Virus record (IMG/VR): IMGVR_UViG_3300025098_003247
Location: 1-36,387 of that record
Origin: a virus
DNA: 36,387 nucleotides
Direction: 5' to 3' (one strand)
The notes beneath the pieces are model-generated. The model did no database searches. It was not told the origin of the DNA and saw only the letters and a list, made by a program, of their open reading frames with translations. Positions within the stretch are counted from its first letter, which is position 1; each line of letters opens with the position of its first letter. A program made the translations under genes and the position numbers. Below, piece after piece: positions 7,303 to 35,357 of the stretch.

Positions 7303-8319
7303 ATGGCCCAACTGTTTAAGACAGCGGCCTGCTTTACGGATATACATTACGGATTAAAGCAAAACAGTCGCTTACATTTAGAAGACTGCCACAGGTATGT
7401 GGACTGGTTTATAGCAGAAGCAAAAGCCAGAAATGCAGAAACTTGTATATTTCTAGGTGACTGGAGTCACCATAGAGCAAGTATAAGTGTTGCAACAATG
7501 AATGCATCTATTAAAGATCTTAAAAAACTTAATGATGCATTTGAAACTGTTTACTTTATAACTGGTAATCACGATCTTTATTACAAAGATAAACGAGATA
7601 TGAATAGCATAGAATATGCTCGTGACCTATCAAATTTTGTAATGGTTGACGACATGTTTGAACAAGACGATGTTGCAATTATTCCATGGCTTGTTGGAGA
7701 TGATTATAAAACAGTTTCTAAAATGCAATGCAAATATATGTTTGGGCATTTTGAATTACCCTACTTTAAAATGAATGCAATGGTAGAAATGCCTGATCAC
7801 GGTGGCATTAATGATAAAATGCTAAGTGGGCCTGAATATGTGTTTAGTGGACATTTCCATAAACGACAATATAAAAATAATATACATTATATAGGAAATG
7901 CATTTCCACATAATTACGCAGATGTTAGAGATGACGAACGTGGTGCTATGTTCTTAACATGGGGAGAAGAACCACAATATGTTAATTGGACAGAATGTCC
8001 AAAATACAGAGTATTTTCTTTAAAAGAATTATTAGATGATCACCAAAACTTATTGGATGAATACACTTATGCTAGAGTAAAACTTGATATTAGCATCAGT
8101 TACGAAGAAGCAAACTTTATTAGAGAGAAGTTTGCAGAACAATATAATGTAAGAGAACTTCAACTTATTCCTGTAAAAGAAGAGGAAGAGTTTGAAGGAG
8201 GAGAAGTACTGTTTGAAAGTGTAAATCAAATTGTACTTGCACAATTAGACACAATAGAATCAAATACAGTCAACAAAGAAACGTTGGTTGATATTTATAA
8301 CAGCATAGACACCGAATAA
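7303..8319 (+). CDS. gp47: gp47, recombination endonuclease subunit (Mre11-like)
   Basis: A 338-aa calcineurin-type phosphoesterase that partners gp46 as the phage Mre11-Rad50 complex, resecting DNA ends for recombination-dependent replication. Metal-binding motifs appear in order: FTDIHYG (D13, H15), LGDWSHHR (D53), TGNHDLYY (N89, H90) and, further on, MFGHFELPY and FSGHFHKRQ. Length equals the T4 protein (339 aa). The start lies 2 nt after the gp55 stop, and its TAA shares one base with the gp46 ATG (TAATG). No key residue is missing. Confidence 0.93.
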   Translation: MAQLFKTAACFTDIHYGLKQNSRLHLEDCHRYVDWFIAEAKARNAETCIFLGDWSHHRASISVATMNASIKDLKKLNDAFETVYFITGNHDLYYKDKRDMNSIEYARDLSNFVMVDDMFEQDDVAIIPWLVGDDYKTVSKMQCKYMFGHFELPYFKMNAMVEMPDHGGINDKMLSGPEYVFSGHFHKRQYKNNIHYIGNAFPHNYADVRDDERGAMFLTWGEEPQYVNWTECPKYRVFSLKELLDDHQNLLDEYTYARVKLDISISYEEANFIREKFAEQYNVRELQLIPVKEEEEFEGGEVLFESVNQIVLAQLDTIESNTVNKETLVDIYNSIDTE

Positions 8320-10085
8320 TGTTAAAAATAAAAAACGTATCAGCAAAGAATTTTATGAGTGTTGGCAACAACACACAGGCAGTTAATTTTGATAACTGTC
8401 AACTTACTCTTGTACTAGGTCACAACTTAGATATGGGTGGTGATGGTAGCAGAAATGGTACTGGTAAAACTACTATTATAAATGCATTAAGTTATGCTCT
8501 TTATGGAGACGCCTTAACAAACATTCGTAAAGACAATCTCATAAACAAAACAAACGGTAAAGGTATGATTGTTACTGTAGAGTTTGAGATAGAAGGAAGA
8601 GCATATAGAATAGAACGTGGAAGACGACCTAATGTGTTAAGACTACTTGTAAACGGAGAAGATGCATTTACAGAAGAACAACAAGGCGACAGCAGAGAGA
8701 CACAGAAAGAAATCGAAAAGATTATTGGCTTCCCACATAATATGTTCAAACATTTAATTGCGTTGAATACATACACAGAACCTTTTCTTAGTATGAGGGC
8801 GAACGATCAAAGAGACATGATCGAACAACTATTAGGCATTACTGAACTTAGTTTAAAAGCAGAAATACTTAAAGAAAGAATGAAGTTTACAAAAGAAGCA
8901 ATTAAGGAAGAAGAGATTACGATTAATGCAATTAATACTAGCAATGAGCGTATAGAAAAGAATATACAAGAAATAGAAAGCAGAAGTAGAGCATGGGAAA
9001 AGAATAAGGAAGATAAAATTATATCTTTGGGAGAAGAGATAGTTGCTCTGGAAACTATTGATATTGACAAAGAGTTAGAAAACCATAAACTACTGGGTGA
9101 CCTTAAAGAACAACGTGCAAATTTACAAGTATTAACATCAGAAGAAAAACGTATTGCAACTAGTTTAAAAAGAAGTACAAAGAAACTAGAAGATTTAAAA
9201 TCCTCTTTGGAAAGTGCAAAAGCAGGAATATGTCCAACATGTGAACAAGAAACTGCCCATTTAGATACACATGAACAATACACTAAAGATCTTATAGATG
9301 ATATAGACAAAGAGGAAATATACTTTTCAGAACTAGAAGAAAGGAATAACGAAATAAATGAAGGTCTAAGTGACTTCGAAAATATAGAAGAAGACCCGGT
9401 TGTATTTTATAATACTTTGGAAAAGGCGTTACAACATAAACATAATGTTGAAACTATGAAAACACAATTAGAGGAAAAAGCCTTAGAAGAAAACCCATAT
9501 ACAGACCAAATAGATTCCTTACAAAAAACAGGAATACAAGAAGTTAATTTTGATAAAATGAACGAACTTACATTTTTGCAGGAACATCAAGACTTCCTAC
9601 ACAAACTTTTAACAAGCAAAGACAGTTTTATTCGTAAAAAAATTATAGATCAAAATATTGCATATCTAAATCATAGACTTGCATATTATTTAGACAAGTT
9701 AGGATTACCACATGATGTAAAATTTGCAAGTGATCTGGGTGTGGAAATTACAGAATATGGCAGAGATTTAGACTTTGATAATCTAAGTAGGGGAGAACGA
9801 AACAGACTAATCCTGGGTTTAAGTTGGGCATTTAGAGATATGTATGAAAGTTTAAATAGGCCTATGAATCTTATGTGTGTTGACGAATTAATTGATAGTG
9901 GAATGGATAGTATGGGTGTTGAAAATGCATTAGGCATTTTAAAGAAAATGCATAGAGAACAAAGTAAAAACATTATGCTTATCTCACACAAAGAAGAACT
10001 AGTAGGACGTGTTAATAATGTATTAACAGTCGTGAAAGAAGGCGGATTTACAGCATACAATACCGACACAGAGTATGTTAATTGA
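8319..10085 (+). CDS. gp46: gp46, recombination endonuclease subunit (Rad50-like ATPase)
   Basis: A 588-aa SMC/Rad50-type ATPase. The N-terminus has Walker A GSRNGTGKTT (about residues 43-52). A long coiled coil (about 170-440) is broken by the zinc hook CPTC (C305, C308). The C-terminal lobe has the ABC signature LSRGERNRLILGL near residue 489 and Walker B LMCVDELIDSGMDS, then an LISHKEEL switch-His segment. It pairs with gp47 immediately upstream; T4 gp46 is 560 aa, so this is full length. The last 11 nt overlap the next gene. Confidence 0.93.
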   Translation: MLKIKNVSAKNFMSVGNNTQAVNFDNCQLTLVLGHNLDMGGDGSRNGTGKTTIINALSYALYGDALTNIRKDNLINKTNGKGMIVTVEFEIEGRAYRIERGRRPNVLRLLVNGEDAFTEEQQGDSRETQKEIEKIIGFPHNMFKHLIALNTYTEPFLSMRANDQRDMIEQLLGITELSLKAEILKERMKFTKEAIKEEEITINAINTSNERIEKNIQEIESRSRAWEKNKEDKIISLGEEIVALETIDIDKELENHKLLGDLKEQRANLQVLTSEEKRIATSLKRSTKKLEDLKSSLESAKAGICPTCEQETAHLDTHEQYTKDLIDDIDKEEIYFSELEERNNEINEGLSDFENIEEDPVVFYNTLEKALQHKHNVETMKTQLEEKALEENPYTDQIDSLQKTGIQEVNFDKMNELTFLQEHQDFLHKLLTSKDSFIRKKIIDQNIAYLNHRLAYYLDKLGLPHDVKFASDLGVEITEYGRDLDFDNLSRGERNRLILGLSWAFRDMYESLNRPMNLMCVDELIDSGMDSMGVENALGILKKMHREQSKNIMLISHKEELVGRVNNVLTVVKEGGFTAYNTDTEYVN

Positions 10086-19856: not shown

Positions 19857-20969
19857 ATGACAGTGAATTTTACAGAACTACTTGAGAACGCGGAATTAAC
19901 AGAAGATGTTAAGTCTGCTCTTCAAGAAGCCTGGGAAGGTAAAATTTCTGAAGCAAGAGAAGAACTTACTGCGGAACTTAGAGAAGAGTTTGCACAGCGA
20001 TACGATCATGACAAAAGTCAAATCGTAGAAGCAGTTGACAACTTTATTTCTGAAAAAGTTGAAGCAGAAATTTCCGCTATTGCAGAAGAAAAAACTGCCC
20101 TAGCAAGTGATCGAGTAAAGTATCACAAAGCAATTAGTGAGCACTCTAAAGTACTTGATAAATTTGTAACTGAAATGGTTGCAAAGGAAGTTAAAGAACT
20201 TAGAGCAGATAGAGATAGAACTAGTGAGCATGTTGCAAAATTAGATAATTTTGTAGCAGAGCAATTAGCAACTGAACTATCTGAGTTCCACGAAGATAAA
20301 AAATCTTTAGTAGAACAAAAAGTTAAAATGGTAAGAGAAGGCAAGAAGCAATTAGCAGAAGCCAAGAAAGACTTTATTAAGAAAGCCGCAGACAAAGTTG
20401 AAAACGTTGTTAATGGTGTAATTGTTAATGAAGTTAAATCTTTCCGTGATGATATTACTAAAGCTCGTGAAAATGACTTCGGTCGCAGAATTTTTGAAGC
20501 ATTTGCAAATGAATTTGGCATGAGCCACTTGAATGAAGCAAAAGAAATCAAGAAAATACAAAAACAAATTACTGAAATGGAATCAAGACTTAATGAATCT
20601 AAGCAAGAAATTGCTGAGAAAGACGAAGCAACTAAACTTGTAGAGTCTAAATTAAGGATTGCACAAGATCAAATGAATCGTAAAGAAACATTAAATGAAC
20701 TTATGGCACCATTAGGTAAAGAGAAGAAAGAAATTATGTCAGACTTACTTGAAAGTGTTAAAACTGAGAAACTGGAAGAGTCCTTTAACAAGTACTTGCC
20801 TTCAGTTTTAGATGGTGAAACACCAAGAGCAAAGAAGACATTGTCAGAATCCGTTGTCAGTGAACACACTGGCGATAAGGCGACTGTTATTACAGAAGCC
20901 GATGACAAGAGTGCGGATGATGTAGTAGAAATAGATATGATCCGTAAACTAGCCGGACTTTCAAAATAA
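19857..20969 (+). CDS. gp22: gp22 major prohead scaffold protein
   Basis: A 370-aa, almost wholly helical, highly charged protein located between the protease and the major capsid protein. Long coiled-coil stretches cover most of it (for example EEKTALASDRVKYHKAISEH and KKIQKQITEMESRLNESKQE). Scaffold-type ends are seen: an N-terminal NFTELLENAELTEDVKSAL and a C-terminal VVEIDMIRKLAGLSK. It contains candidate gp21 cleavage sites of the L-x-E type (LQE before A near residue 23, LSE before S near the C-terminus). T4 gp22 is 269 aa, so this core protein is longer. AGGAG lies upstream of the ATG. Confidence 0.88.
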   Translation: MTVNFTELLENAELTEDVKSALQEAWEGKISEAREELTAELREEFAQRYDHDKSQIVEAVDNFISEKVEAEISAIAEEKTALASDRVKYHKAISEHSKVLDKFVTEMVAKEVKELRADRDRTSEHVAKLDNFVAEQLATELSEFHEDKKSLVEQKVKMVREGKKQLAEAKKDFIKKAADKVENVVNGVIVNEVKSFRDDITKARENDFGRRIFEAFANEFGMSHLNEAKEIKKIQKQITEMESRLNESKQEIAEKDEATKLVESKLRIAQDQMNRKETLNELMAPLGKEKKEIMSDLLESVKTEKLEESFNKYLPSVLDGETPRAKKTLSESVVSEHTGDKATVITEADDKSADDVVEIDMIRKLAGLSK

Positions 20970-22673: not shown

Positions 22674-25600
22674 ATGGCAACAAGAAAAACGTACATCAAC
22701 AGTGACGAAGAATTAGTCATAAAAGGCGCCCTGACGATAGAGGGCAATGTTACTCAGATAGAGACTACTGAAACAATTAATAGATTACAGACTGATCAAT
22801 TTATTATAAATTCAGATGGTGATGCAACAACGGCCGCCTTAACACTAAACGGTACAGGTTCTGACCAAGCCACTATGAGTTATAATACCACAAATGGAAT
22901 CATACAATTTAATAAAAATATTACTGCTACTAACTTTACAGGAAATGTAATTGGACAAAGTGCTTCAGCAGAAAAGTTTACAAGTGCAGTTACAGTAGCA
23001 TTGACAGGAGATGTTTCAGGTAGTGCAACATTTATAGGAGCAGGTAATACGGCTTCTATTGCCACAACAATACAACAAAATTCAGTAGCATTAGGTACAG
23101 ATACAACAGGTGATTATGTTGCTGGACTAACTGGTGGTAACGGACTTACAGTAGTAGGCTCCGGTTCAGAAGGTGCAACTCCAGTTGTAAATATGGATGC
23201 AACAGGAGTAACTGCCGCAAGTTATGGAAGTGCTTCAGCAGTATCTACATTTACAGTAAACGGATTAGGACAATTAACAACAGCCGCAACAACACCAATA
23301 CAAATTGCAACATCTCAAATTACAAGTTTAGAATCTGTAGTTAAAGCATATTTTAGTGCAAACGACACAGGTGGTGACGGTAGTCTATCTTACAGTAACG
23401 GCGTATTTACATATACAGGTCCAAGTGCAGGAGAAGTAAGAGCTCATTTAAGTGGTGGCACAGGTATTACATATAATAGTACGAGTGGCGTAATTTCCAC
23501 AACAGATGCAGATATAGTTCACGATAATTTAAGTGGGTTTGTAGCAAACGAACATATTAATCACGGAAGTGTAAACTTAACAGCAGGTGACGGTTTAAGT
23601 GGCGGTGGTGATATTACGTCTTCAAGAAGTTTTGCTGTAGATAATACGGTTGTAAGAACAACTGGCTCACAAACTATATCTGGAAATAAAACATTTAGTG
23701 GTAATCAAACATTTACAGGTGATGTAGATTTAAGTGGAGCAGGTGATGTTTCAGGATTTACAGTTGACGGTGACTTAGTTGTTACAGGTACAATGACAGT
23801 TACAACTGTTAATGCCACAACAGAAACAAATTCAGTTATTACTGCATCAAGTTTAACACTTAGAGATGGTGCAAGTTCTAACGCAGATGCACAAATATTT
23901 GTAGAAGGTAATTACAGTGGTAATTTCCCAAATTTAAAATGGAACAGTTCAGGTAATAGATGGCAATTTAGTAATAATGGTGTAGCATATAACGATATGT
24001 TATTACTATCAGATATTACAGGTGGCGCAGGTTTAACCTTTGGTTCAGGCGATATAGCAGTTGGTCAAGGATATGGTATCACTGTAAATGCTGATACTGT
24101 AGAAACTAATAATTCACAAGTTAGAGCATTGTTCAGTATTTCAAATGCAAGTGGCGATGGTGCATTAGCATATGATAATAGTACAGGTGTTATTACTTAC
24201 ACAGGTCCAAGTGCTAGTGAAGTTAGAGCTCATTTAAGTGTAGGTACAAATACAGGCGACGGTGATTTCACATACAATGATGCAACAGGTCAAATGCATT
24301 ATGCAGGACCAACATCAAGTGTTTATAGAACTGCTTTACAAAGTGGTGACGGAATAGATTACATACAAGGTAACGGTAATATCAGAGTTGATAGTACAGT
24401 AGTAAGAACGTCGGGTAATCAAACTATATCAGGTACAAAAACATTTAATGGAGCATTATCAGTTCCTGGTACTGCAAGTACAACAGCAAATGCAATATAT
24501 ACAGAAAGTGGAGAAGCATTTATTTATGTAGGTGGACAAGCAAAGAAAATTACACCCACAGCAAGTGTAGGAACAGTAGCAAGTGTTGGTTCAGGTGACA
24601 TTAACTTATATGCAGGAAAAACAACAGTTGCAAATGTTGATACACATGGTGTTAAGAGTATTAGTAATGGTGCATACGCAACATTATCAGAAGGAAGTAA
24701 TGTTGTAACAGTTGATGCAAATATTAGTGCAATTAGAAGTGCATTTAGTGGTACAGGAAGTATTAATTACAATGCTGGTACTGGTGTATTTAGTTTTACT
24801 GATGCAGATAGGACTGATGCAACAATAAGGGGATTATTTAGTGCAGGTGGTTCTTTAAGTTATGACAGTAACTCCGGTAATTTCTCATTTACAGAAAGAA
24901 CAGATTCAGAAGTAAGAAGTTTATTTACCGGAACAGGACTTATATCATATAACAATGGTTCAGGAACATTTAGTACAACAGCAGATAATTATTCAAGTTG
25001 GAACTTTAATACAGATACAAATAGTGCCGCTGGAATAGGTTCAGGACAAACCCTTACATTCACTGGTGGAACAGGTGTTAATGTTACACATAGTGGACAA
25101 ACAATTACAATTACAAATACTAATTCTGCAGACATTGACGCCGTTACTGCAGGTAATGGTTTAACAGGTGGTGGCTCTCAAGGTACTGTTTCCCTAGCCG
25201 TTGGTGCAGGAGATTTAATAGATGTAAATTCAACTTCCGTAAATGTTGATTTAACAGAATTAACTGATATGACACAAACGTTTGCTGGTGTAGATGAATT
25301 TGTTGTATTAGATAATGATTATACTGGTAATACATTAAACTATTCAGTACAACGTAGAAAACGTGCAGAAGAGATTGGATTAAGCAAGTTTGATAATGAT
25401 GCAGGATTTGGAACAATAACAGGCGTAACAGCAAGTACAGGATTAACAGGTGGTGGAAGTACAGGAAGTATAAGTTTGGCTTTGGCAACGGCAGGTGCTG
25501 GTGCTGGTACATATGGCTCTACAGATGATAATAGTAAAATAGATCAAATCACATTAGATGCTTACGGTAGAGTTACAAGTATTTCTACAGGACCAAGTGG

Positions 25601-26597
25601 TGATATAAGTCGTGTTAATATTACAGCAGGTGCTGGTTTAACAGGTTCAGCAGATACTACAACAGGTACTCATACACAAACATTATCAGTTGTACAAGCA
25701 ACATCATCAGCATTTGGTGGTGTAAAAGTTGGATATTCAGAAAACGGTAAAAACTATCCAGTTGAATTAGATAGTGGTAAGATGTATGTAAATGTTCCAT
25801 GGGTTGATACCAATACAGATACTAATACAACATATACTGCTGGAACAGGATTAAGTTTATCTGGTACAACATTTAATGTTGGAGGTTTAACATTAAGTGA
25901 ATTGGCTTCCGGTAGTTATCAAACTTCCTCGTCCTTTTCAACTAACGGGTTTTACGATACTGATGGTAAAATACTTACATCAGCGGCAGTAAATGATTTA
26001 ATATTAAGTAAAGGATACGGTGATATTTCTGCTGTACTTACTGCAAATGGCTCTGGATTAAATGGTGGAGCGGCAAGTGGTAGTGTAAACTTAACTATTG
26101 ATCTTACAGATACAAATATATTTACTAGTACAAATACAGTAAGTAAGGCTGTAGTCAGAGACACTAATGGTAATTTTGCCGCAGGTACAATTACAGCAAC
26201 AGCCACACAGGCTCAATATGCTGACTTGGCTGAGAACTATGTAGCAGACGAAAGTTATGAACCAGGAACTGTTTTAGTAATTGGCGGACAACACGAAGTA
26301 ACTGTAACAGAAGAAGCAGGAAGTTATAAAGTAGTAGGTGTTGTATCAACAGACCCTGCACATTTAATGAACGTAGACTGTGAAGGCGAACATGTAGTAG
26401 CAGTAGCATTACGTGGTAGAATACCATGTAAAGTTATTGGTAATGTGAATAAAGGCGATGTGCTTGTTGCAAGTGATACTCCAGGGTATGCAATGGTAGG
26501 TGCTATGTCACATACATTAAGTCCATTGCAAATAGTTGGTAGATCATTAGAAACTAAAACAGATGCGATGCCTGGTATTGTTGAAATCATAGTTTAA
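22674..26597 (+). CDS. Long repetitive tail fibre / virion appendage protein
   Basis: A 1307-aa, Gly/Ser/Thr/Asn-rich, beta-structured protein. The N-terminus (KTYINSDEELVIKGALTIEG) resembles virion-attachment ends of marine phage fibres. The body repeats units such as GDGSLSYSNGVFTYTGPSA followed by EVRAHLS, and NEHINHGSVNLTAGDGLSGG with DITSSRSF, typical of long tail fibres. The C-terminal about 125 residues (ADLAENYVADESYEPGTVLV, STDPAHLMNV, LRGRIPCKVIGNVNKGD) form a module shared with the 1050-aa fibre downstream, probably an assembly or tip domain. It has its own late promoter. Which host structure it binds cannot be told. Confidence 0.85.
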   Translation: MATRKTYINSDEELVIKGALTIEGNVTQIETTETINRLQTDQFIINSDGDATTAALTLNGTGSDQATMSYNTTNGIIQFNKNITATNFTGNVIGQSASAEKFTSAVTVALTGDVSGSATFIGAGNTASIATTIQQNSVALGTDTTGDYVAGLTGGNGLTVVGSGSEGATPVVNMDATGVTAASYGSASAVSTFTVNGLGQLTTAATTPIQIATSQITSLESVVKAYFSANDTGGDGSLSYSNGVFTYTGPSAGEVRAHLSGGTGITYNSTSGVISTTDADIVHDNLSGFVANEHINHGSVNLTAGDGLSGGGDITSSRSFAVDNTVVRTTGSQTISGNKTFSGNQTFTGDVDLSGAGDVSGFTVDGDLVVTGTMTVTTVNATTETNSVITASSLTLRDGASSNADAQIFVEGNYSGNFPNLKWNSSGNRWQFSNNGVAYNDMLLLSDITGGAGLTFGSGDIAVGQGYGITVNADTVETNNSQVRALFSISNASGDGALAYDNSTGVITYTGPSASEVRAHLSVGTNTGDGDFTYNDATGQMHYAGPTSSVYRTALQSGDGIDYIQGNGNIRVDSTVVRTSGNQTISGTKTFNGALSVPGTASTTANAIYTESGEAFIYVGGQAKKITPTASVGTVASVGSGDINLYAGKTTVANVDTHGVKSISNGAYATLSEGSNVVTVDANISAIRSAFSGTGSINYNAGTGVFSFTDADRTDATIRGLFSAGGSLSYDSNSGNFSFTERTDSEVRSLFTGTGLISYNNGSGTFSTTADNYSSWNFNTDTNSAAGIGSGQTLTFTGGTGVNVTHSGQTITITNTNSADIDAVTAGNGLTGGGSQGTVSLAVGAGDLIDVNSTSVNVDLTELTDMTQTFAGVDEFVVLDNDYTGNTLNYSVQRRKRAEEIGLSKFDNDAGFGTITGVTASTGLTGGGSTGSISLALATAGAGAGTYGSTDDNSKIDQITLDAYGRVTSISTGPSGDISRVNITAGAGLTGSADTTTGTHTQTLSVVQATSSAFGGVKVGYSENGKNYPVELDSGKMYVNVPWVDTNTDTNTTYTAGTGLSLSGTTFNVGGLTLSELASGSYQTSSSFSTNGFYDTDGKILTSAAVNDLILSKGYGDISAVLTANGSGLNGGAASGSVNLTIDLTDTNIFTSTNTVSKAVVRDTNGNFAAGTITATATQAQYADLAENYVADESYEPGTVLVIGGQHEVTVTEEAGSYKVVGVVSTDPAHLMNVDCEGEHVVAVALRGRIPCKVIGNVNKGDVLVASDTPGYAMVGAMSHTLSPLQIVGRSLETKTDAMPGIVEIIV
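24181..24237 (+). repeat. 57-bp exact repeat shared between two fibre genes (copy 1)
   Basis: These 57 bases recur without a mismatch at 30495-30551 in the other long fibre gene, encoding the same GVITYTGPSASEVRAHL peptide. Flanking DNA differs on both sides. Confidence 0.9.
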
Positions 26598-26619
26598 ACT
26601 ATATAAAACTCCATAAAAA

Positions 26620-26627
26620 GATAAATA
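26620..26627 (+). promoter_or_regulatory. Late promoter (GATAAATA) for the 317-aa fibre gene
   Basis: AAAAGATAAATACTATTG, followed by a leader of about 95 nt before the ATG at 26729. Confidence 0.78.
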
Positions 26628-26633
26628 CTATTG

Positions 26634-26728
26634 AACGGATAAGACTGTGCCGACAAATGGCATAGACAAGGGTTCGTAAGGCATGGTGTCCTTATTACAA
26701 CTCCTTGAACTAACCGGGAAGTAAATTA
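26634..26728 (+). ncRNA. Possibly structured 5' leader of the 317-aa fibre gene
   Basis: Stem A pairs ATAAGAC (26639-45) with GTCCTTAT (26688-95, one bulged C). A hairpin TGCC-GACAAAT-GGCA (26648-62) nests inside it. Stem B pairs CAAGGGTT (26667-74) with AACTCCTTG (26699-707, one bulged T). A and B interlock like a pseudoknot. No known class is recognised. Confidence 0.35.
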
Positions 26729-27682
26729 ATGGCGATATTTGGTAATTTCAAAGGAACTACCGTATCTGAATTTCAAATAGGAAAATCTGGTTCAGGTAGT
26801 AAAATTTCCACGGGTACTATACCGAGTGCAGACATCTCTGCGGGTGATATATACATTGATAGTTCTAATTCAACTTTACAAGTCTATGACGGCGCTTGGA
26901 AAAATATCGGATCAACATTACCGGAACTGAACGTAGATTCCGGAACACTTTTTGTAGATTCTACAAACGACACAGTCTCTATCGGTTCAACAAGTTCAAA
27001 TGAAAAACTATTCGTAAATGGTAGTTTAAGATTAGGAACAAACCCAACAATAAAATTTAGTGGTGCATATCTAGATGTAGCACACAGTAATGGAACTGCT
27101 ACCCAATTAAGAGTAAGAGATAACAGTTCCGGATCAGACCCAATTTTTAAAGTATACAATGCTAGTAATAGTGCAGAAGTATTTAAAGTACAAGGTGGAA
27201 CAACAACTGTAACAGGCGATATTGCAATATCAGGTAACATTACAGGTGCAGATACAGATAACTTATCAGAAGGCACAACTAATGTATATTTTACAACAGC
27301 AAGAGCAAATAGTGCCATAGATGCAAAATTAACTGGCGACATTACGTTTGGTAATGTTACGGCTCAAAGTGTTAATACAGGTGTAGTTGAAGGAGTTGTA
27401 TTTCAACCAATAACAGATTATGGAACTATTACAACATCAGCAAACATAACAATTGATTATGGTGCAGTAAATGAAGCAGGAACAGTTCCTGCAATTGGAG
27501 ACTTTGAATACATATCAGATATATTTGGTCCAACAGGAGATAGTTTTCTAGTTGCTTCATTACCAAGTGCGGCACAACCAGGACAAATGATTTATGTCAG
27601 TGATGAAACTGGCGGTTCAGTTATGGCATTTAGTGATGGCAGTAACTGGAGAAGGATAACAGATAGAGCAGTAGTAAGTTAA
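26729..27682 (+). CDS. Fibre / appendage structural protein
   Basis: A 317-aa beta-rich virion protein. It opens FGNFKGTTVSEFQIGKSGSG and contains one copy of the NLSEGTTNVYFTTARANSAI repeat that the 1050-aa fibre carries about ten times. It ends with the module LPSAAQPGQMIYVSDETGGS and SDGSNWRRITDRAVV, a frequent C-terminal cap in marine phage structural proteins. It starts after GGGAAG and a structured leader, and the next gene begins 19 nt after its stop. Short fibre or connector between appendages are both possible. Confidence 0.75.
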   Translation: MAIFGNFKGTTVSEFQIGKSGSGSKISTGTIPSADISAGDIYIDSSNSTLQVYDGAWKNIGSTLPELNVDSGTLFVDSTNDTVSIGSTSSNEKLFVNGSLRLGTNPTIKFSGAYLDVAHSNGTATQLRVRDNSSGSDPIFKVYNASNSAEVFKVQGGTTTVTGDIAISGNITGADTDNLSEGTTNVYFTTARANSAIDAKLTGDITFGNVTAQSVNTGVVEGVVFQPITDYGTITTSANITIDYGAVNEAGTVPAIGDFEYISDIFGPTGDSFLVASLPSAAQPGQMIYVSDETGGSVMAFSDGSNWRRITDRAVVS

Positions 27683-27700
27683 TTTTAAACAGGAACACAC

Positions 27701-29134
27701 ATGCCAAGAGCAAAAAAGACTGCAACAGATAAAAAAGCAGTCACAAAAAAGAAGGTTACAACACCGAGTACAGAAGTAGATGCAAAAAAGTTGAAAGCAA
27801 CTCTTAAAAAAGAACTTAAAAAAGAGATGCAAACGGCATTAGAAGAAGCATTGTTAAGTATAGAAATAGATATACCTGAACAATCAACAGATGCTTTTGT
27901 AGATATGGATTTACTAAGGGAAGAAATAAGAAAAGAAGTTGAATTTGAAATCCGTAAAAAAGAAACAACGGAAAAACATAAAGCAGAAGCGACACTTACT
28001 AGAAGTGAATTATCCTTAACAGGAGAAAAAACGTATAAGTTTATTTCAGATTTAGATGGGTTTGCAGTAAAAGAAGAAAAACATACTATTCTTAGTGCAA
28101 ACAAAACAGGTGCAGTAGGATTTGGATTGAGAGCACCTAGGACAGTTGGTGTGGGTAGTGCCCACTTTAGAGCAAACTATCCTAGTGAAGCATCAATACC
28201 TTCAACAGGTAAAAATAGTACGAGAGGACTAATAGTAGAGGGAGACGGAGACGATAATAATTCGTACATTTTAAGGGCATTAAGTAGAGGAAATAGACAA
28301 GGATTAAATTTAACAAGTAAAGGTAATTTAACACTAGGTGATATGAATAATGATGAACTTAGTAGACTTAAAATTGTAAATAATGAGTACGATAATATAG
28401 GTTTAAATTTAATTAATAAGAGTAAATATTTTTCAGGAACTTCTCTTGATATAAGTGCAGAAGGACCAGAAGGCAGACAGTTTAATTTTATAAACTGTAA
28501 GTCAAGAACAGAAGATAATAAATTAGGAATTCCACAATTTAGAGTAGATGGGGAAGGAACAATTTATACAGAGACAGGTGTATTTTCAAATAGAACAGGG
28601 TATGGAGAACTATTTGAATGGGCAGATGGTAACAAAAAGAACGAAAACAGAAACGGGTTTTGTGTTGCAACAGATGAAAGGGGACTATTAGTTCCTGCAA
28701 CAGAAGAAGATAACGTTATTGGAGTAGTTACAGAATCAGCCGCAATAGTTGGAAATGCTTTTTGGAATACCTGGAAACACAAATTTTATTACGGTGAAGA
28801 TAAAGAACCTGCTAAAGTAAAATATAAAATTGTTGAATGGATGGACGATGTGGGTGTACTACATAGTTACTATTTAAATGCTTTAGACAAGGAGTTTGCT
28901 TTACCAGAAAATGCTATTATATATGAGACAGATGAAGAAGGCTCAGATATGAAGTACAAACAAATGAATGATATGTTTGATCCAATGACAGAATATCAGG
29001 ATAGACGAGATAGAGGATGGGCAGTTGTTAGCATGATTGGTACTACCAATTTATGGAAAGGACAAATTGTTAATCCAAATTGGATAAAGGTCAGAGACAT
29101 TAGTGATGACTTAGAACAATGGATTTTAAGGTAA
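27701..29134 (+). CDS. Appendage protein with C-terminal Peptidase_G2-type chaperone domain
   Basis: A 477-aa protein. Residues 1-30 are a Lys-rich tail (PRAKKTATDKKAVTKKKVTT). Residues about 30-95 form a charged helix likely to coil. A beta-rich middle follows (ANKTGAVGFGLRAPRTVGVG). From about residue 300 come YGELFEWADGNKKNENRNGF, LVPATEEDNVIGVVTESAAI, VGNAFWNTWKHKFYY and YQDRRDRGWAVVSMIGTTNL, the pattern of the Peptidase_G2 / intramolecular-chaperone domain known from phage neck-appendage proteins, which trimerises the fibre and then cuts itself off. Whether the catalytic residues are intact cannot be judged by eye. It is cotranscribed with the 317-aa gene. Confidence 0.75.
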   Translation: MPRAKKTATDKKAVTKKKVTTPSTEVDAKKLKATLKKELKKEMQTALEEALLSIEIDIPEQSTDAFVDMDLLREEIRKEVEFEIRKKETTEKHKAEATLTRSELSLTGEKTYKFISDLDGFAVKEEKHTILSANKTGAVGFGLRAPRTVGVGSAHFRANYPSEASIPSTGKNSTRGLIVEGDGDDNNSYILRALSRGNRQGLNLTSKGNLTLGDMNNDELSRLKIVNNEYDNIGLNLINKSKYFSGTSLDISAEGPEGRQFNFINCKSRTEDNKLGIPQFRVDGEGTIYTETGVFSNRTGYGELFEWADGNKKNENRNGFCVATDERGLLVPATEEDNVIGVVTESAAIVGNAFWNTWKHKFYYGEDKEPAKVKYKIVEWMDDVGVLHSYYLNALDKEFALPENAIIYETDEEGSDMKYKQMNDMFDPMTEYQDRRDRGWAVVSMIGTTNLWKGQIVNPNWIKVRDISDDLEQWILR

Positions 29135-29136
29135 AT

Positions 29137-29144
29137 GATAAATA
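29137..29144 (+). promoter_or_regulatory. Late promoter (GATAAATA) for the 1050-aa fibre gene
   Basis: AAATGATAAATACAATAAAG, 3 nt after the stop of the G2-domain gene and 44 nt before the ATG at 29189, which is preceded by AGGGG. Confidence 0.78.
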
Positions 29145-29188
29145 CAATAAAGATTATTTGCTATACAAACAAATTTTAGGGGTAAAAA

Positions 29189-32100
29189 ATGGCAACAGCA
29201 ATTCAAAGGAGACGAGGTACTACTAGCCAACACAGTTCATTTACTGGGTTAGCAGGTGAGATCACGATCGATACAGATAAAAATACGGTCGTAGTACATG
29301 ACGGCTCACAAGCAGGTGGTTATCCACTAGCAAAATATACAGATGTTTCTGCACTAGGTGGTGCCGACATTACTGACGTTGTAGCAGGATCTGGTTTAAC
29401 AGGTGGTGCAACAAGTGGTAGTGCAACAATTAGTTTAAACTATGAAAACTTAGCAGGTAACTTAGTACCAAGTGCAAACAATACTTACAGTTTAGGTACT
29501 TCAAGTAGTGTTTGGAAAGATGTATTTGTTGGACCAGGATCATTATATGTTAACGGACAACAAGTTATTTCAGATAATTCAGGTACAATTACTATTGGTG
29601 CTGATACTAACCAAAACATTAGTATTGTTACAGCAGGTTCAGGTGATGTAGAAATTACAACAGGCGGCCAGATTCAACTAAAATCAGATGTTGTTTTAAG
29701 TGCTGGTAAGACAATTAGTACAGCAGGTGGTGGTGCTACTACACAGGGTGGTAACATCAACATGGATAGTAACAATATTAACAACTTGGACGATCCTGTA
29801 GCGGCACAAGACGGTGCAACAAAGGCATACGTTGATGCACAGATCCTAACAAAAGACAATACAGACGAAATTACAGAAGGTTCAAGTAACTTATATTACA
29901 CAAATGCAAGAGCAGATGCTAGAATTACAGCGGCATTAATTGACGAAGACAACATGGGTTCTAATAGTGCTACTAGATTGCCTTCACAGCAATCAGTTAA
30001 AGCATACGTTGATTCTTCAGTGGCGGCCAAAGATGCATTAAGTGAACTAAGTGGTGATTCAGATGATATTACAGAAGGTACAACTAACCTTTTCCATACA
30101 TCAGCAAGAGCACAGACTGAGGCCAACGTTGCAATTGGTAACAATACAACAACAAACTTAGACGAAGGTACAAATTTATACTTTACAAACGCAAGAGCAG
30201 ATGCTAGAGTAGATGCAGGATTTAGTGCTAAAGATACAGATAATTTAAGTGAAGGAACAAATAGCCTTTACTTTACTAATGAAAGAGCCCAAGATGCTGT
30301 AGGTAGCATAATGACAGGTTCTGGTAATATATCTGTAAATTATAATGATGCAGGTGGTGTTATAACAATTAGTGAAACATTAACTACAACAGATATAACA
30401 GAAGGCGATAATCAATATCATACATCAGCAAGAGCAAGAGCGGCAATTAGTGTTACTGATGCAGGTGGCGACGGTTCATTAGCATATAATAGTGGTACAG
30501 GTGTTATTACTTACACAGGTCCAAGTGCTAGTGAAGTTAGAGCTCATTTAACTGCTGGTGACGGATTAGATGTTTCTAGTGGTGAATTTGCAGTAGATAA
30601 TACTATTGTTAGAACTACAGGTGCTCAAACTATTGCAGGTGCTAAAACATTTAGTAATGATGCTATATTTAATGGTAACTTAACTATTAATGGTACGCAA
30701 ACAGTTGTTAATACAGAAACCCTTACTGTAGATGACAACATTATTATTCTAAACAATAATGCATCAGGTACTCCAACTGAAAATGCTGGTATCCAAGTTA
30801 ATAGAGGTACATCAGCAGACGTCACATTAAGATGGGGCGAAAGTACAGATACTTGGGAATTTACAAATGACGGTTCTACATACTATGCATTATCAACAAG
30901 CACAAGTGATTTAGCAGAAGGCTCAAATCTTTACTTTACTAATGCAAGAGCAGATGCCAGAATAGCGGCGGCTAATACAGATAATTTAAGTGAAGGTTCA
31001 AGTAACTTATATTACACAAATGCAAGAGCAGATGCTAGGGTAGATGCAGGATTTAGTGCTAAAGATACTGATAATTTAAGTGAAGGTTCAAGTAACTTAT
31101 ATTATACAGATTCTAGAGCAGATGCCAGAGTGGCGGCGGCAACAGGTGCAAACCTAAGTTTAGCAAATAAAGACACTGATGATTTAGGTGAAGGTTCAAC
31201 TAACCTTTATCATACATCAGCAAGAGCAGATGCTAGATTTGATGTTAAGATGGCAGCGGCTGTTACAGACGACTTAGATGAAGGTTCAAGTAATTTATAT
31301 TATACAGATGCTAGAGCTCAAGCGGCAATAACAGGTGGTACTGCAATTACAGTAAGTAGTGGTGCAGTAAGTGTTACTGCTGGATCAATTGGTGCTACAC
31401 AACTTGCATCAACAGGTGTTTCAGCGGCAACTTACGGTGATGCTGATAGTGTTGCACAATTTACAGTAGATGCAGACGGACGTGTTACAGCGGCAAGTAG
31501 TGTTGATATTGCTATATCCAGTGATGCAGTTAGTGGATTGGCCACATCAGCAACAGTAGATACAACAAGTGCAAGTAATATTAGTTCAGGTACTTTAAAT
31601 AGTGCTAGACTTCCTGACTTAGCAGTTAGTGACTTTGCAGGAGCGTCTATACAGTTAGGCACAGAATCATTTAGTGATAGTGACTCAGTACTTATGACAG
31701 CGGCGGCAATTCAAGATAAAATTACAAGTTATGGTTATACAACTACAACAGGTGATATTACTGGAGTTACAGCAGGATCAGGTCTTACAGGAGGTGGTTC
31801 TAGTGGTGGAGTTACACTTAATGTAGGCGCAGGTTCATATATGACTGTTAATGCAGACGATATTGCAGTTGATGCCACATCGGCCAATACAGCAAGTAAG
31901 GTTGTAGCAAGAGATGGTTCAGGTAACTTTAGTGCAGGAACAATTACTGCAACGGCAACGAACGCTCAATATGCTGACTTGGCTGAGATATACAAAGGTG
32001 ATTCAGATATTGAACCAGGAACAGTTGTAGTGTTTGGTGGTGAATTTGAAATAACAGAATGTGAAGAAGACTCAAGTCATGCAGTAGCAGGTGTTATATC

Positions 32101-32341
32101 AACAGACCCAGCACACTTAATGAACGCAGAAGCAGAAGGCTCTCCAGTAGCATTAGCAGGACGTGTACCATGTAAGGTAACAGGTCCAGTTGCTAAAGGT
32201 GACTTAATGGTTAGTTCAAGTGTCCCAGGACATGCTAAAGCAGATAACAATGCATCAGCAGGTAGAATAATTGGTAAAGCAATTGAAGCCAAAGAAGGTG
32301 ATGATAACGGAGTTATAGAAGTTTTAGTAAACATGATGTAA
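29189..32341 (+). CDS. Long tail fibre with tandem LxEGxxNLYxTxARA repeats
   Basis: A 1050-aa fibre. The N-terminus (AIQRRRGTTSQHSSFTGLAG, EITIDTDKNTVVVHDG) is the classic virion-proximal module of marine myophage fibres. Between about residues 230 and 715 lie about ten copies of a repeat centred on L-x-E-G-S-S-N-L-Y-Y-T-N-A-R-A-D-A-R, several nearly identical in DNA as well. The C-terminal about 125 residues (ADLAEIYKGDSDIEPGTVVV, STDPAHLMNA, LAGRVPCKVTGPVAKGD) are paralogous to the end of the 1307-aa fibre. Together these suggest two related fibre chains sharing an assembly or tip domain. It has its own late promoter and a strong terminator. Confidence 0.87.
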   Translation: MATAIQRRRGTTSQHSSFTGLAGEITIDTDKNTVVVHDGSQAGGYPLAKYTDVSALGGADITDVVAGSGLTGGATSGSATISLNYENLAGNLVPSANNTYSLGTSSSVWKDVFVGPGSLYVNGQQVISDNSGTITIGADTNQNISIVTAGSGDVEITTGGQIQLKSDVVLSAGKTISTAGGGATTQGGNINMDSNNINNLDDPVAAQDGATKAYVDAQILTKDNTDEITEGSSNLYYTNARADARITAALIDEDNMGSNSATRLPSQQSVKAYVDSSVAAKDALSELSGDSDDITEGTTNLFHTSARAQTEANVAIGNNTTTNLDEGTNLYFTNARADARVDAGFSAKDTDNLSEGTNSLYFTNERAQDAVGSIMTGSGNISVNYNDAGGVITISETLTTTDITEGDNQYHTSARARAAISVTDAGGDGSLAYNSGTGVITYTGPSASEVRAHLTAGDGLDVSSGEFAVDNTIVRTTGAQTIAGAKTFSNDAIFNGNLTINGTQTVVNTETLTVDDNIIILNNNASGTPTENAGIQVNRGTSADVTLRWGESTDTWEFTNDGSTYYALSTSTSDLAEGSNLYFTNARADARIAAANTDNLSEGSSNLYYTNARADARVDAGFSAKDTDNLSEGSSNLYYTDSRADARVAAATGANLSLANKDTDDLGEGSTNLYHTSARADARFDVKMAAAVTDDLDEGSSNLYYTDARAQAAITGGTAITVSSGAVSVTAGSIGATQLASTGVSAATYGDADSVAQFTVDADGRVTAASSVDIAISSDAVSGLATSATVDTTSASNISSGTLNSARLPDLAVSDFAGASIQLGTESFSDSDSVLMTAAAIQDKITSYGYTTTTGDITGVTAGSGLTGGGSSGGVTLNVGAGSYMTVNADDIAVDATSANTASKVVARDGSGNFSAGTITATATNAQYADLAEIYKGDSDIEPGTVVVFGGEFEITECEEDSSHAVAGVISTDPAHLMNAEAEGSPVALAGRVPCKVTGPVAKGDLMVSSSVPGHAKADNNASAGRIIGKAIEAKEGDDNGVIEVLVNMM
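30495..30551 (+). repeat. 57-bp exact repeat shared between two fibre genes (copy 2)
   Basis: Identical over 57 bases to 24181-24237, about 6.3 kb upstream, in the same orientation. Confidence 0.9.
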
Positions 32342-33528: not shown

Positions 33529-34554
33529 TTGACTAAAAATATTTTAATAGCACTAATAGGTGTTTTATATTTGAGTGGTTGTGCCAGTATCGCTATTCCG
33601 GGCGATGAGATGTGCCAAACGGATTTTCTTGAGTGTGTTGAAGAACCCAAGAAAGTAGAACTACCCACATATAGAAAATTACGATATTTGCCACCGGCAG
33701 AAGTTATGCCTGTGGTTGCCATATATCAATTTGGTGATGGCACAGGACAAAGAAAAAGTCAAGACGGAGTTGCTAGTTTTAGTACAGCAGTTACGCAAGA
33801 CGCAAAAAGTTTATTAGTAGACGCTCTAAAGGCGGCAGGTTCAGGTAGTGATGCCAAAGGAACTTGGTTTAGAGTAGTTGAAAGAGGACTAGGTTTAGAT
33901 AACTTAGTTAGAGAAAGACAAATAGTTCGAAGTACTAGATCCGAAACTGCCAAGCAGAACGGATTAGAGGAGTTTCAAGAACTACAGCCAATGTTATTTG
34001 CTGGTATGATATTAGAAGGTGGTGTTATAGGATACGACACTAATATTGAATCAGGAGGTACAGGGGCAAGATATTTGGGTATTGGGACAACAAACCAATA
34101 TCGAAGAGATAGCATAGTTATATCATTAAGAGCCGTTTCCACACTCACAGGCGAAGTGATATTAAATGTGCAAACACAAAAGACTGTTTTAAGTTCAGGA
34201 CAAGCAGGAGACGTATTTAGATTTGTAGATATGGATACTCGTTTGTTAGAACTTGAAAGCGGTATGACACAGAATGAAAGTGTAACATTTGCAGTTAGAT
34301 CAGCGATCGAGGCCGCGGTGTTAGAACTTATTAAGCAAGGTGATGAAAGAGGATATTGGAAGATTGTTTATCCTGAGGATTGGGACCAACAAGTTGCAGA
34401 ACAAGAACAAGCATACTGGTTGAGTCTCAAAGATGCAGGCAATCTTACTGACGAGGAAGATGAAGAACAGTACTCTAAAGACCCAAATGATTTACCTTTG
34501 TGGAAACGCATTCTTTTAAAGAATGATAATAAAACCAATATTGGAGAAAAATAA
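33529..34554 (+). CDS. csgG: CsgG-like outer-membrane curli secretion channel (lipoprotein)
   Basis: A 341-aa lipoprotein starting at TTG (33529), one base after the csgF stop. Its Shine-Dalgarno is weak, so translation is probably coupled. The lipobox LSGC puts the lipidated Cys at residue 18. Family blocks: PVVAIYQFGDGTGQRK, FSTAVTQDAKSLLVDALKAA, WFRVVERGLGLDNLVRERQI, AGMILEGGVIGYDTNIESGG, GTGARYLGIGTTNQYRRDSI and LRAVSTLTGEVILNVQTQKT. In bacteria CsgG forms a nonameric outer-membrane pore that passes unfolded curlin. The C-terminal about 50 residues beyond GYWKIVYPEDW are an acidic extension. All core barrel and periplasmic regions appear present. Confidence 0.92.
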   Translation: MTKNILIALIGVLYLSGCASIAIPGDEMCQTDFLECVEEPKKVELPTYRKLRYLPPAEVMPVVAIYQFGDGTGQRKSQDGVASFSTAVTQDAKSLLVDALKAAGSGSDAKGTWFRVVERGLGLDNLVRERQIVRSTRSETAKQNGLEEFQELQPMLFAGMILEGGVIGYDTNIESGGTGARYLGIGTTNQYRRDSIVISLRAVSTLTGEVILNVQTQKTVLSSGQAGDVFRFVDMDTRLLELESGMTQNESVTFAVRSAIEAAVLELIKQGDERGYWKIVYPEDWDQQVAEQEQAYWLSLKDAGNLTDEEDEEQYSKDPNDLPLWKRILLKNDNKTNIGEK

Positions 34555-35357
34555 TGAAGATAATTAAAAACTTAGCGGTTGGTATCTTCGCATTAATAGG
34601 ACTTATGTCCAACCCAGTAATTGCTGATGATAACGAAGTGTTAATAGATCAAGAAGGTGATAACCTTGTATTAACAATTTTACAAGCAGGAACAGGTAAT
34701 ACTGTATCTGGTAATAGTTCAGCATCAACAGACTTAATACTTACTGGTAATAATATTATATTAGACCTTATACAAGACGGTGACAACAATGATTTCTTTG
34801 GTGCACTTGTTTTAGATGGTTCAGGATCAAGTGTTTTAGATTTTTACAATCTAGGAGATGGTAACATTTTTGATTTTGATGTAGGTGATAATAGTGCCGA
34901 CAATGCTGATATGCTTTCAAGCATTCAGGGTGACGGTAACATATTTGACATAGGTATAGGTGAAAATGCCAGTGCAGAAGGTTTAAACTTTGATTTAGTA
35001 ATACTAGGTGACAGAAACGATTTCGACTCATCTTTTGCTAATGCTAAAGTTTGGGCGGCGGCTGGAACAGGTGACACTTGTGGAACAAACTGTACAGGTA
35101 CAAGTACAATGGTAGGTATCTTAGTTGATGCTGACAACGTTGTATGGAACTTTGATATTACAGGTGATGACAATGACTTTGCTACTAAGCAAAGCGGTAA
35201 CAGTGATCACAGTTTAACATTAGACCTGACAGGTAGTGATGGTGATTTCCAGTTCACTCAGGATATGACTACAACTTGTAACCCTGCATGTCACGGTATT
35301 ATTAATGTCGAGTTAGACAGCGAAAATGCTTCAGTTAGTATTAAACAAACCGACTAA
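34554..35357 (+). CDS. Curlin-like secreted repeat protein (CsgA/CsgB-like)
   Basis: A 267-aa protein coupled to csgG by a TAATG overlap. Residues 1-24 are a Sec signal ending VIA before DDNE. The mature part has imperfect curlin-type repeats with the pattern Q/D-x-G-x-x-N: VLIDQEGDNLVLTILQAGTG, LIQDGDNNDFFG, FYNLGDGNIFDFD, SSIQGDGNIFDIG, VILGDRNDFD and FDITGDDNDFATKQSG. These predict stacked strand-turn-strand units like an amyloid or beta-solenoid. It is strongly acidic and has two CxxxC pairs (C176/C180 and C242/C246) that ordinary CsgA lacks. It is the natural substrate candidate for the adjacent CsgG/CsgF. Amyloid formation is inferred from repeat pattern only. Confidence 0.78.
   Translation: MKIIKNLAVGIFALIGLMSNPVIADDNEVLIDQEGDNLVLTILQAGTGNTVSGNSSASTDLILTGNNIILDLIQDGDNNDFFGALVLDGSGSSVLDFYNLGDGNIFDFDVGDNSADNADMLSSIQGDGNIFDIGIGENASAEGLNFDLVILGDRNDFDSSFANAKVWAAAGTGDTCGTNCTGTSTMVGILVDADNVVWNFDITGDDNDFATKQSGNSDHSLTLDLTGSDGDFQFTQDMTTTCNPACHGIINVELDSENASVSIKQTD

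Follow-up and report, generated by a model that had tools for sequence, protein, structure and literature searches.

Why should two different fibre genes of one virus share a run of 57 identical bases? The question is raised by the IMG/VR virus record IMGVR_UViG_3300025098_003247, a linear sequence of 36,387 bases (hereafter the window, meaning the whole stretch analysed), in which a short repeat unit is present as copies A and B in fibre gene 1 and as copy C in fibre gene 2. Comparison with close relatives points to recent recombination between the fibre genes, a reading that is well supported. Very probably, a B-type patch of at least 75 base pairs (bp) replaced the matching stretch of copy C in fibre gene 2 after the split from the lineage of one relative, G004, and the 57 bp would be a remnant of it.

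The identity between 24181-24237 (copy B) and 30495-30551 (copy C) is exact, just as the original prediction had it, and the two copies share codon phase (codon 502 of fibre 1 and codon 435 of fibre 2, counted from 0). Among exact direct repeats of at least 18 bp, this pair is the longest in the window. The runner-up, of 47 bp, lies within fibre 2, where another unit (EGSSNLYYTNARADAR) is repeated exactly at 29876-29922 and 30992-31038, 1.1 kb apart. The surroundings had also been described as diverged; this is true beyond a unit of about 111 bp, where B and C at the same offset agree at about 5-18 bases in each block of 30, but not of the immediate surroundings, as both copies lie within a longer repeat that is 88% alike. 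Directly beside the 57 bp, B and C agree at 55 of 90 bases upstream and at 29 of 90 downstream. Copy A has indeed diverged, as claimed, but the edge of a mosaic tract falls inside this very copy, which had served as the diverged control. The window holds three occurrences of a degenerate motif, ACNGGNCC...GARGTNMGNGCNCAYYT, and 100 shuffles produced none.

One IMG/VR record besides the window, G001 (IMGVR_UViG_3300048115_000621), contained the exact 57-mer in a search from which records very near the window may be omitted. G001 matches the window at 96.7% over its 9.3 kb. The B locus is also present in G003 (94% over 7.6 kb), in G002 (87%) and in G004, which reaches 77-89% in its longest blocks and carries both fibre genes. 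A further record, G005, is 99.98% identical to the window and stops at 23603, short of copy B.

Could the identity be maintained by purifying selection on the protein or the DNA, with no recombination at all? Copies B and C sit in a widespread fibre repeat unit, GGDGSLAYNS-TGVITYTGPSASEVRAHLS, which is common in fibre-like genes of IMG/VR contigs. A degenerate DNA scan of IMG/VR found at least 120 stretches, a sample selected for the motif. A relaxed motif search, with a survey base of 237 loci (the window's own L002-L004 dropped and the window added), yielded 309 matches in 176 sources, or 245 copies after deduplication. The amino-acid core is strongly conserved, as selection would have it, and its commonest form, TGVITYTGPSASEVRAHL, accounts for 28 of the 245 copies. 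Against this, the same 245 copies hold 238 distinct 54-nucleotide (nt) cores, and codon identity at positions with identical amino acids is 0.45 between contigs and 0.55 within loci; the unit's DNA varies freely while its protein is conserved. If two copies had chosen among synonyms independently at the 18 codons, they would match with a probability of 4.3e-7 under the codon use of 11 window genes, or of 5.0e-6 under that of the two fibre genes. Because the cores are so nearly all different and a chance match is so rare, neither constraint nor independent codon choice explains the identity well. Pairs identical at 54 of 54 positions number 2 of 178 within loci, namely the window pair and a pair in contig L128 that is 102 bp apart, and 4 of 29,691 between contigs, two of these being the window with G001. 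The comparison across strains, which had been proposed as a check on the original prediction, shows that the identical pair is not kept in G001, G003 or G004: the motif copies within each of these genomes differ in a 99-nt matrix, whose ungapped alignment understates the likeness of units two codons apart. Taken together, these results leave selection as a very improbable source of the identity.

The origin of the patch was traced by comparing copy C with its candidate donors and with its counterpart in G004. The positional orthologue of copy C was placed at 31819 of G004 by a protein-level search, replacing a candidate at 30211; it carries a different motif, two codons shorter. Positions at which a donor candidate's B differs from this orthologue were taken as informative sites. 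With G001 B as the donor, copy C is B-type at 15 of 15 sites within the tract 30477-30551 and at 26 of 114 outside it, and none of 20,000 shuffles gave a run of 15. If the window's own B is taken instead, the counts are 15 of 18 inside and 24 of 111 outside, and the run of 11 was reached once in 20,000 shuffles. Over the tract, copy C is identical to G001 B at 75 of 75 bases, and matches the window's own B at 96% and G004 B at 92%. Its left flank is closest to fibre 2 of G004 (79% over 137 nt), and its right flank is closest to fibre 2 of contig L238 (84% over 147 nt) or of G004 (86% over 121 nt; 82% over 306 nt with a longer query). Copy C is thus nearer to a paralogue (G001 B first, own B second) than to its orthologue inside the tract, and the reverse holds in the flanks, the pattern expected of ectopic gene conversion between paralogous repeats. 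The proposal that the fibres had recombined is well borne out by this pattern, with the tract nearest to B of a close relative and the flanks nearest to fibre 2. A further suggestion was that host-range modules are shuffled in this way; such an effect would be hypothetical for the patch, and the repeat unit that it encodes is read here as a probable shaft or connector and not as an identified receptor-binding tip.

The direction of transfer would be from B to C, because the B loci of G001, G003 and G004 are B-type, whereas the fibre-2 orthologue of C in G004 is not. In the window and in G001, copy B keeps both B-type sequence and B-type flanks. More broadly, B lies between two B-type flanks in the window and four relatives, as copy C does between two C-type flanks in the window and in G004. 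These flanks also bear on a possible assembly artefact in which reads of B were merged into C. The window is a metagenome contig known from its consensus alone, and an exact repeat of 57 bp is longer than short k-mers, which would favor such an error; a mis-join is unlikely, since B and C each have flanks of their own type on both sides. Nor can the left end of C (AATAGTGGT) stem from reads of the window's B, because it is of the G001 type and lacking in that B, although reads from a G001-like strain in the sample could supply it. Weighing these points, we consider an artefact highly unlikely. A different alternative is that a whole repeat unit was recently duplicated into fibre 2 instead of replacing an existing one. 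In several relatives, the ends of fibre 2 are kept and its middle is permuted, duplicated or replaced, which makes duplication conceivable. Yet the fibre 2 orthologue of G004 has a motif copy at the same place, homologous on both sides, and the first part of the C unit (30442-30476) is mostly fibre-2-type rather than B-type; we therefore think a fresh duplication quite unlikely.

Several results weigh against the transfer of a B-type patch into copy C. The state of copy C seen here is known from one record, since G001, G002, G003 and G005 all stop before fibre 2. With G004 B as the donor the signal is weaker, at 12 of 15 sites inside and 24 of 74 outside, and the run was reached in 144 of 20,000 shuffles. 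The Fisher p of 4e-9 for the informative sites is optimistic, because the bounds 30477-30551 were picked from the match itself, which affects the run test less. The tree for the 76-nt tract, built from 13 named copies and the 15 most similar of the deduplicated survey (loci from the same contigs left out), is too short to be firm: the clade uniting the B copies with C has support of 67/76 and is unstarred. On the same tract the approximately unbiased (AU) test does not reject a grouping of C with the G004 orthologue, the tree held to that grouping being 0.31 log units better (p 0.54). The G004 orthologue itself shares exact stretches of 32 and 31 bp with another copy in its own gene; it may thus have been replaced in turn, and is an imperfect proxy for the ancestor. 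The B type is absent from the B locus of G002. No direct product of a B by C crossover was seen under best flank assignment among the 109 records that match any flank, which represent at most 81 contigs. Finally, no RecA or UvsX match was found in the window fragment or in two other fragments.

Table 1. Coordinates of the fibre genes, repeat copies and related features in the window
Feature	Position	Strand	Basis and remarks
57-bp exact segment, copy B, encodes sTGVITYTGPSASEVRAHL	24181..24237	+	Direct-repeat comparison
57-bp exact segment, copy C	30495..30551	+	Direct-repeat comparison
Probable full transferred patch	30477..30551	+	75/75 identical to G001 copy B; informative-site test
Full repeat unit around copy B	24135..24245	+	88% alike to 30449-30559 (family D10)
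Full repeat unit around copy C	30449..30559	+	Family D10
Diverged repeat copy A, holds left edge (23420) of mosaic tract	23394..23462	+	Repeat family and comparison with G001
Mosaic tract	23420..23652	+	68/233 differences from G001, flanks nearly identical; nearest G002 (92.7%), near-identical G005 aside
Fibre gene 1, 1307 aa, repeat copies A and B, BppL_N repeats	22674..26597	+	Open reading frame; Pfam PF18338; phrog_22593/19602 at C-terminus
Fibre gene 2, 1050 aa, repeat copy C, Mtd-like N-terminus	29189..32341	+	Open reading frame; Mtd_N and BppL_N
Fibre 1 C-terminal domain	26133..26406	+	72% DNA likeness to 31886-32159 (family D3)
Fibre 2 C-terminal domain	31886..32159	+	Family D3 partner of 26133-26406
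Metallophosphoesterase and SbcC-like ATPase genes	7303..10085	+	Metallophos, AAA_23 (Pfam); phrog_77; candidate machinery for exchange

Fibre gene 1 provides a second view of exchange, and with it a rival origin for the patch. Between the window and G001 there are 248 differences in the 3924 bases of fibre 1, and 202 of these are concentrated in seven tracts that make up 606 bases in total; no such tract lies upstream. The comparison with G003 gives nine tracts, eight in fibre 1 and one (20583-20664) outside the fibre gene. Among close relatives, fibre 1 switches sharply between near-identity and divergence, as mosaic fibres do. The tract at 23420-23652 opens inside motif A and closes at the next repeat type (TVVRTTGSQTIS), and one of the tracts against G003 closes at 23648. 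The unit motif is not the sole junction, because most other tract edges fall elsewhere and one G003 tract lies outside the fibre gene. Such exchange between lineages, evident where this tract resembles G002 and departs from G001 (Table 1), would fit a patch donated by the fibre 1 B copy of a co-infecting G001-like phage, and not by the virus's own genome, through the same mechanism. The match over the full 75 bases to G001 B favors this donor, as the window's own B is exact over the 57 bp only. The same pattern would arise if C had been copied from an ancestral B before the window's B changed, and the two donors look alike because G001 and the window hardly differ upstream of fibre 1 (at 16 of 4191 bases). 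We give the co-infecting donor somewhat less than an even share within the best explanation.

The best-supported mechanism for the replacement of copy C by a B-type patch would be homologous exchange of short patches between repeat units. At least 75 bp of the B version of the fibre 1 repeat unit would have replaced their counterpart in copy C of fibre 2, and the window's own B may later have changed at a few left-end bases, cutting the exact match from 75 to 57 bp. We envision that, in the course of replication, one repeat unit supplied a DNA end that paired with another unit via short homology, presumably by strand invasion, and that a T4-type phage recombination system helped, such that a few dozen bases were copied before the end returned; the enzymes are putative. 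The exchange may have been a gene conversion or a double crossover. The metallophosphoesterase and SbcC-like pair (Table 1) presumably resembles the T4 gp47/gp46 recombination nuclease. Pairing without return would instead swap whole neighbouring modules, and could give the mosaic and permuted fibre genes of the relatives. T4 UvsX can pair at 3-4 nt after breaks, whereas about 50-150 nt is given as the requirement of classical recombination (PMC8262927); given these homology needs, a 111-bp unit that is 88% alike would be a plausible pairing partner.

Is the patch an isolated event, or does the unit recur as a point of exchange? Under best flank assignment, five contigs have C-type sequence to the left and A-type sequence to the right of the motif, and a looser flank pairing also lists G002, as C-left and A-left with B-right. 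The B locus of G002 has B-type flanks (89% and 85%) around a motif that groups with the A copies in a starred clade (support 97/96; bootstrap values are rough), and its identity to the window dips at this motif. Exact patches of the unit between different open frames were found in contigs L204 (62 and 50 bp, with spacings of 6.2 and 5.5 kb) and L165 (50 bp, with a spacing of 7.9 kb), and a shorter one, of 33 bp, in L159; patches within a single frame were found in L024, L128, L202 and G004. Those of L204 and L165 stop abruptly, with flanks that are alike at 30-62 of 90 bases. These patches come from 20 sources examined in detail, where six of the longest repeats belong to other kinds (L127, L171, L187, L191, L194 and L195). 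In L171, L191 and L195, several exact stretches of 35 to 105 bp are common to two different open frames, which lie about 9.1-9.4 kb from each other; this is another family, which looks recently exchanged or duplicated. Across 149 contigs (the window and 148 non-redundant contigs from 198 sources of at least 8 kb), exact direct repeats of at least 57 bp and more than 1 kb apart occur in nine, the window included, and repeats of at least 40 bp in 19; 95 have none of at least 22 bp. The window is therefore unusual, although not unique, in its long exact repeats.

A broader reading is that the TGVITYTGPSASEVRAHLS unit serves the fibres of marine phages as a standing connector for recombination, spread over many genes and phages and homogenised in patches, at which modules are rejoined in frame; this we put forward only tentatively, as a doubtful possibility. 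A search with the DNA of 24135-24300 found nothing in 50,697 isolate phage records, and a literature search on the unit's amino-acid strings gave no match. A structure predicted from 17 sequences for the 171 residues of the unit and its right flank has, locally, two strands (31-35 and 40-44) and a short turn, and is too poor for a fold search (predicted local distance difference test, pLDDT, 66; predicted template-modelling score, pTM, 0.27).

The fibre proteins themselves find partial matches only, mostly in cyanophages; fibre 1 is matched mainly via its C-terminal domain and fibre 2 via its repeat-rich middle. The two C-terminal domains contain a 25-bp exact stretch, and relatives of this domain are found in phages of Pseudomonas, Campylobacter, Agrobacterium and Sinorhizobium. 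Fibre 1 has zero matches among solved structures. The N-terminus of fibre 2 (29189-29416) matches about residues 1-76 of Bordetella phage Mtd (PDB 1yu0) with an E of 5e-16, and the rest of Mtd is unmatched. This N-terminus raises the question of a diversity-generating retroelement target, which comprises the C-type lectin variable domain of Mtd, a nearby template repeat and a reverse transcriptase. A Pfam scan of 15 proteins, a part of those encoded in this fragment, gave no reverse transcriptase. Near the fibre genes, the protein of 27701-29134 has a Peptidase_G2 autoproteolytic domain, and an IMG/VR search via this gene gave one contig, G004; the protein of 34554-35357 has a weak curlin-repeat match, slightly below Pfam's cut-off.

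Pfam and PHROG matches indicate T4-type genes in the window, namely a gp23-like capsid, a portal, an SbcC-like protein, Metallophos and AAA_23 domains and T4 baseplate matches. The top isolate matches of the portal are PA5oct-type Pseudomonas phages, at 53%. A much longer relative, G013 (locus L245; 250,519 bases), was found via a downstream gene; its best segment has 88% identity and it contains a RecA-family gene. As a reference for this phage group it is preferable to the 36-kb fragments. The phages are probably mostly marine, judging by the cyanophage and pelagiphage matches of fibre 2 rather than by sample labels.

How does this locus compare with known routes of fibre variation? Domain duplication in tail-fibre adhesins has been described in phage T4 (Tetart 1996, as cited) and in Xanthomonas phages OP1, Xp10 and Xop411 (PMC2248197). 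There, as in the window, short repeated coding units in fibre genes vary in number or arrangement; those duplications take place within one gene and are tied to host range, whereas the window's patch appears to have moved between two genes and is known from sequence alone. Enterococcus phage EfV12-phi1 carries a tandem duplication in its tail fibre (PMC6365445), likewise an in-frame rearrangement in a putative fibre gene, but one of 1.8-kb tandem units under laboratory coevolution, in contrast to the naturally occurring patch of some 75 bp between two genes here. Closer in setting are the Schizotequatrovirus vibrio phages, with recombination hot spots in receptor-binding loci (PMC12028318): these too are large marine phages whose divergence is concentrated in fibre loci and explained by recombination, although events are inferred along core genes, and the part of that report available mentions no patches between paralogous fibres. 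Pelagimyophages and cyanomyophages have a host recognition cluster, with Mtd and YadA domains among the structural proteins (PMC7029224). It resembles the window as a variable structural region with several fibre genes, but is described there, as far as that text was available, as a large variable island and not as patches of tens of bases. The minihomology recombination of T4 UvsX shows a T4-type phage recombining at very short identity; it concerns deletions after Cas cleavage, with no fibre repeats mentioned in the part available, whereas here a patch would have passed between fibre repeats (PMC8262927). Passages of PMC6957217 and PMC9603124 yielded nothing decisive. Fibre variation by repeats and recombination is thus already well known, and the window adds a well-bounded case of short-homology fibre mosaicism: a clean natural example of an exchange of tens of bases between distinct fibre genes, with its donor type, recipient and bounds, in a widespread unit that marks where fibre modules were joined in different combinations in several contigs. 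If recombination were truly concentrated at this unit, that would go some way to explaining how the fibres of large marine phages change faster than by point mutation.

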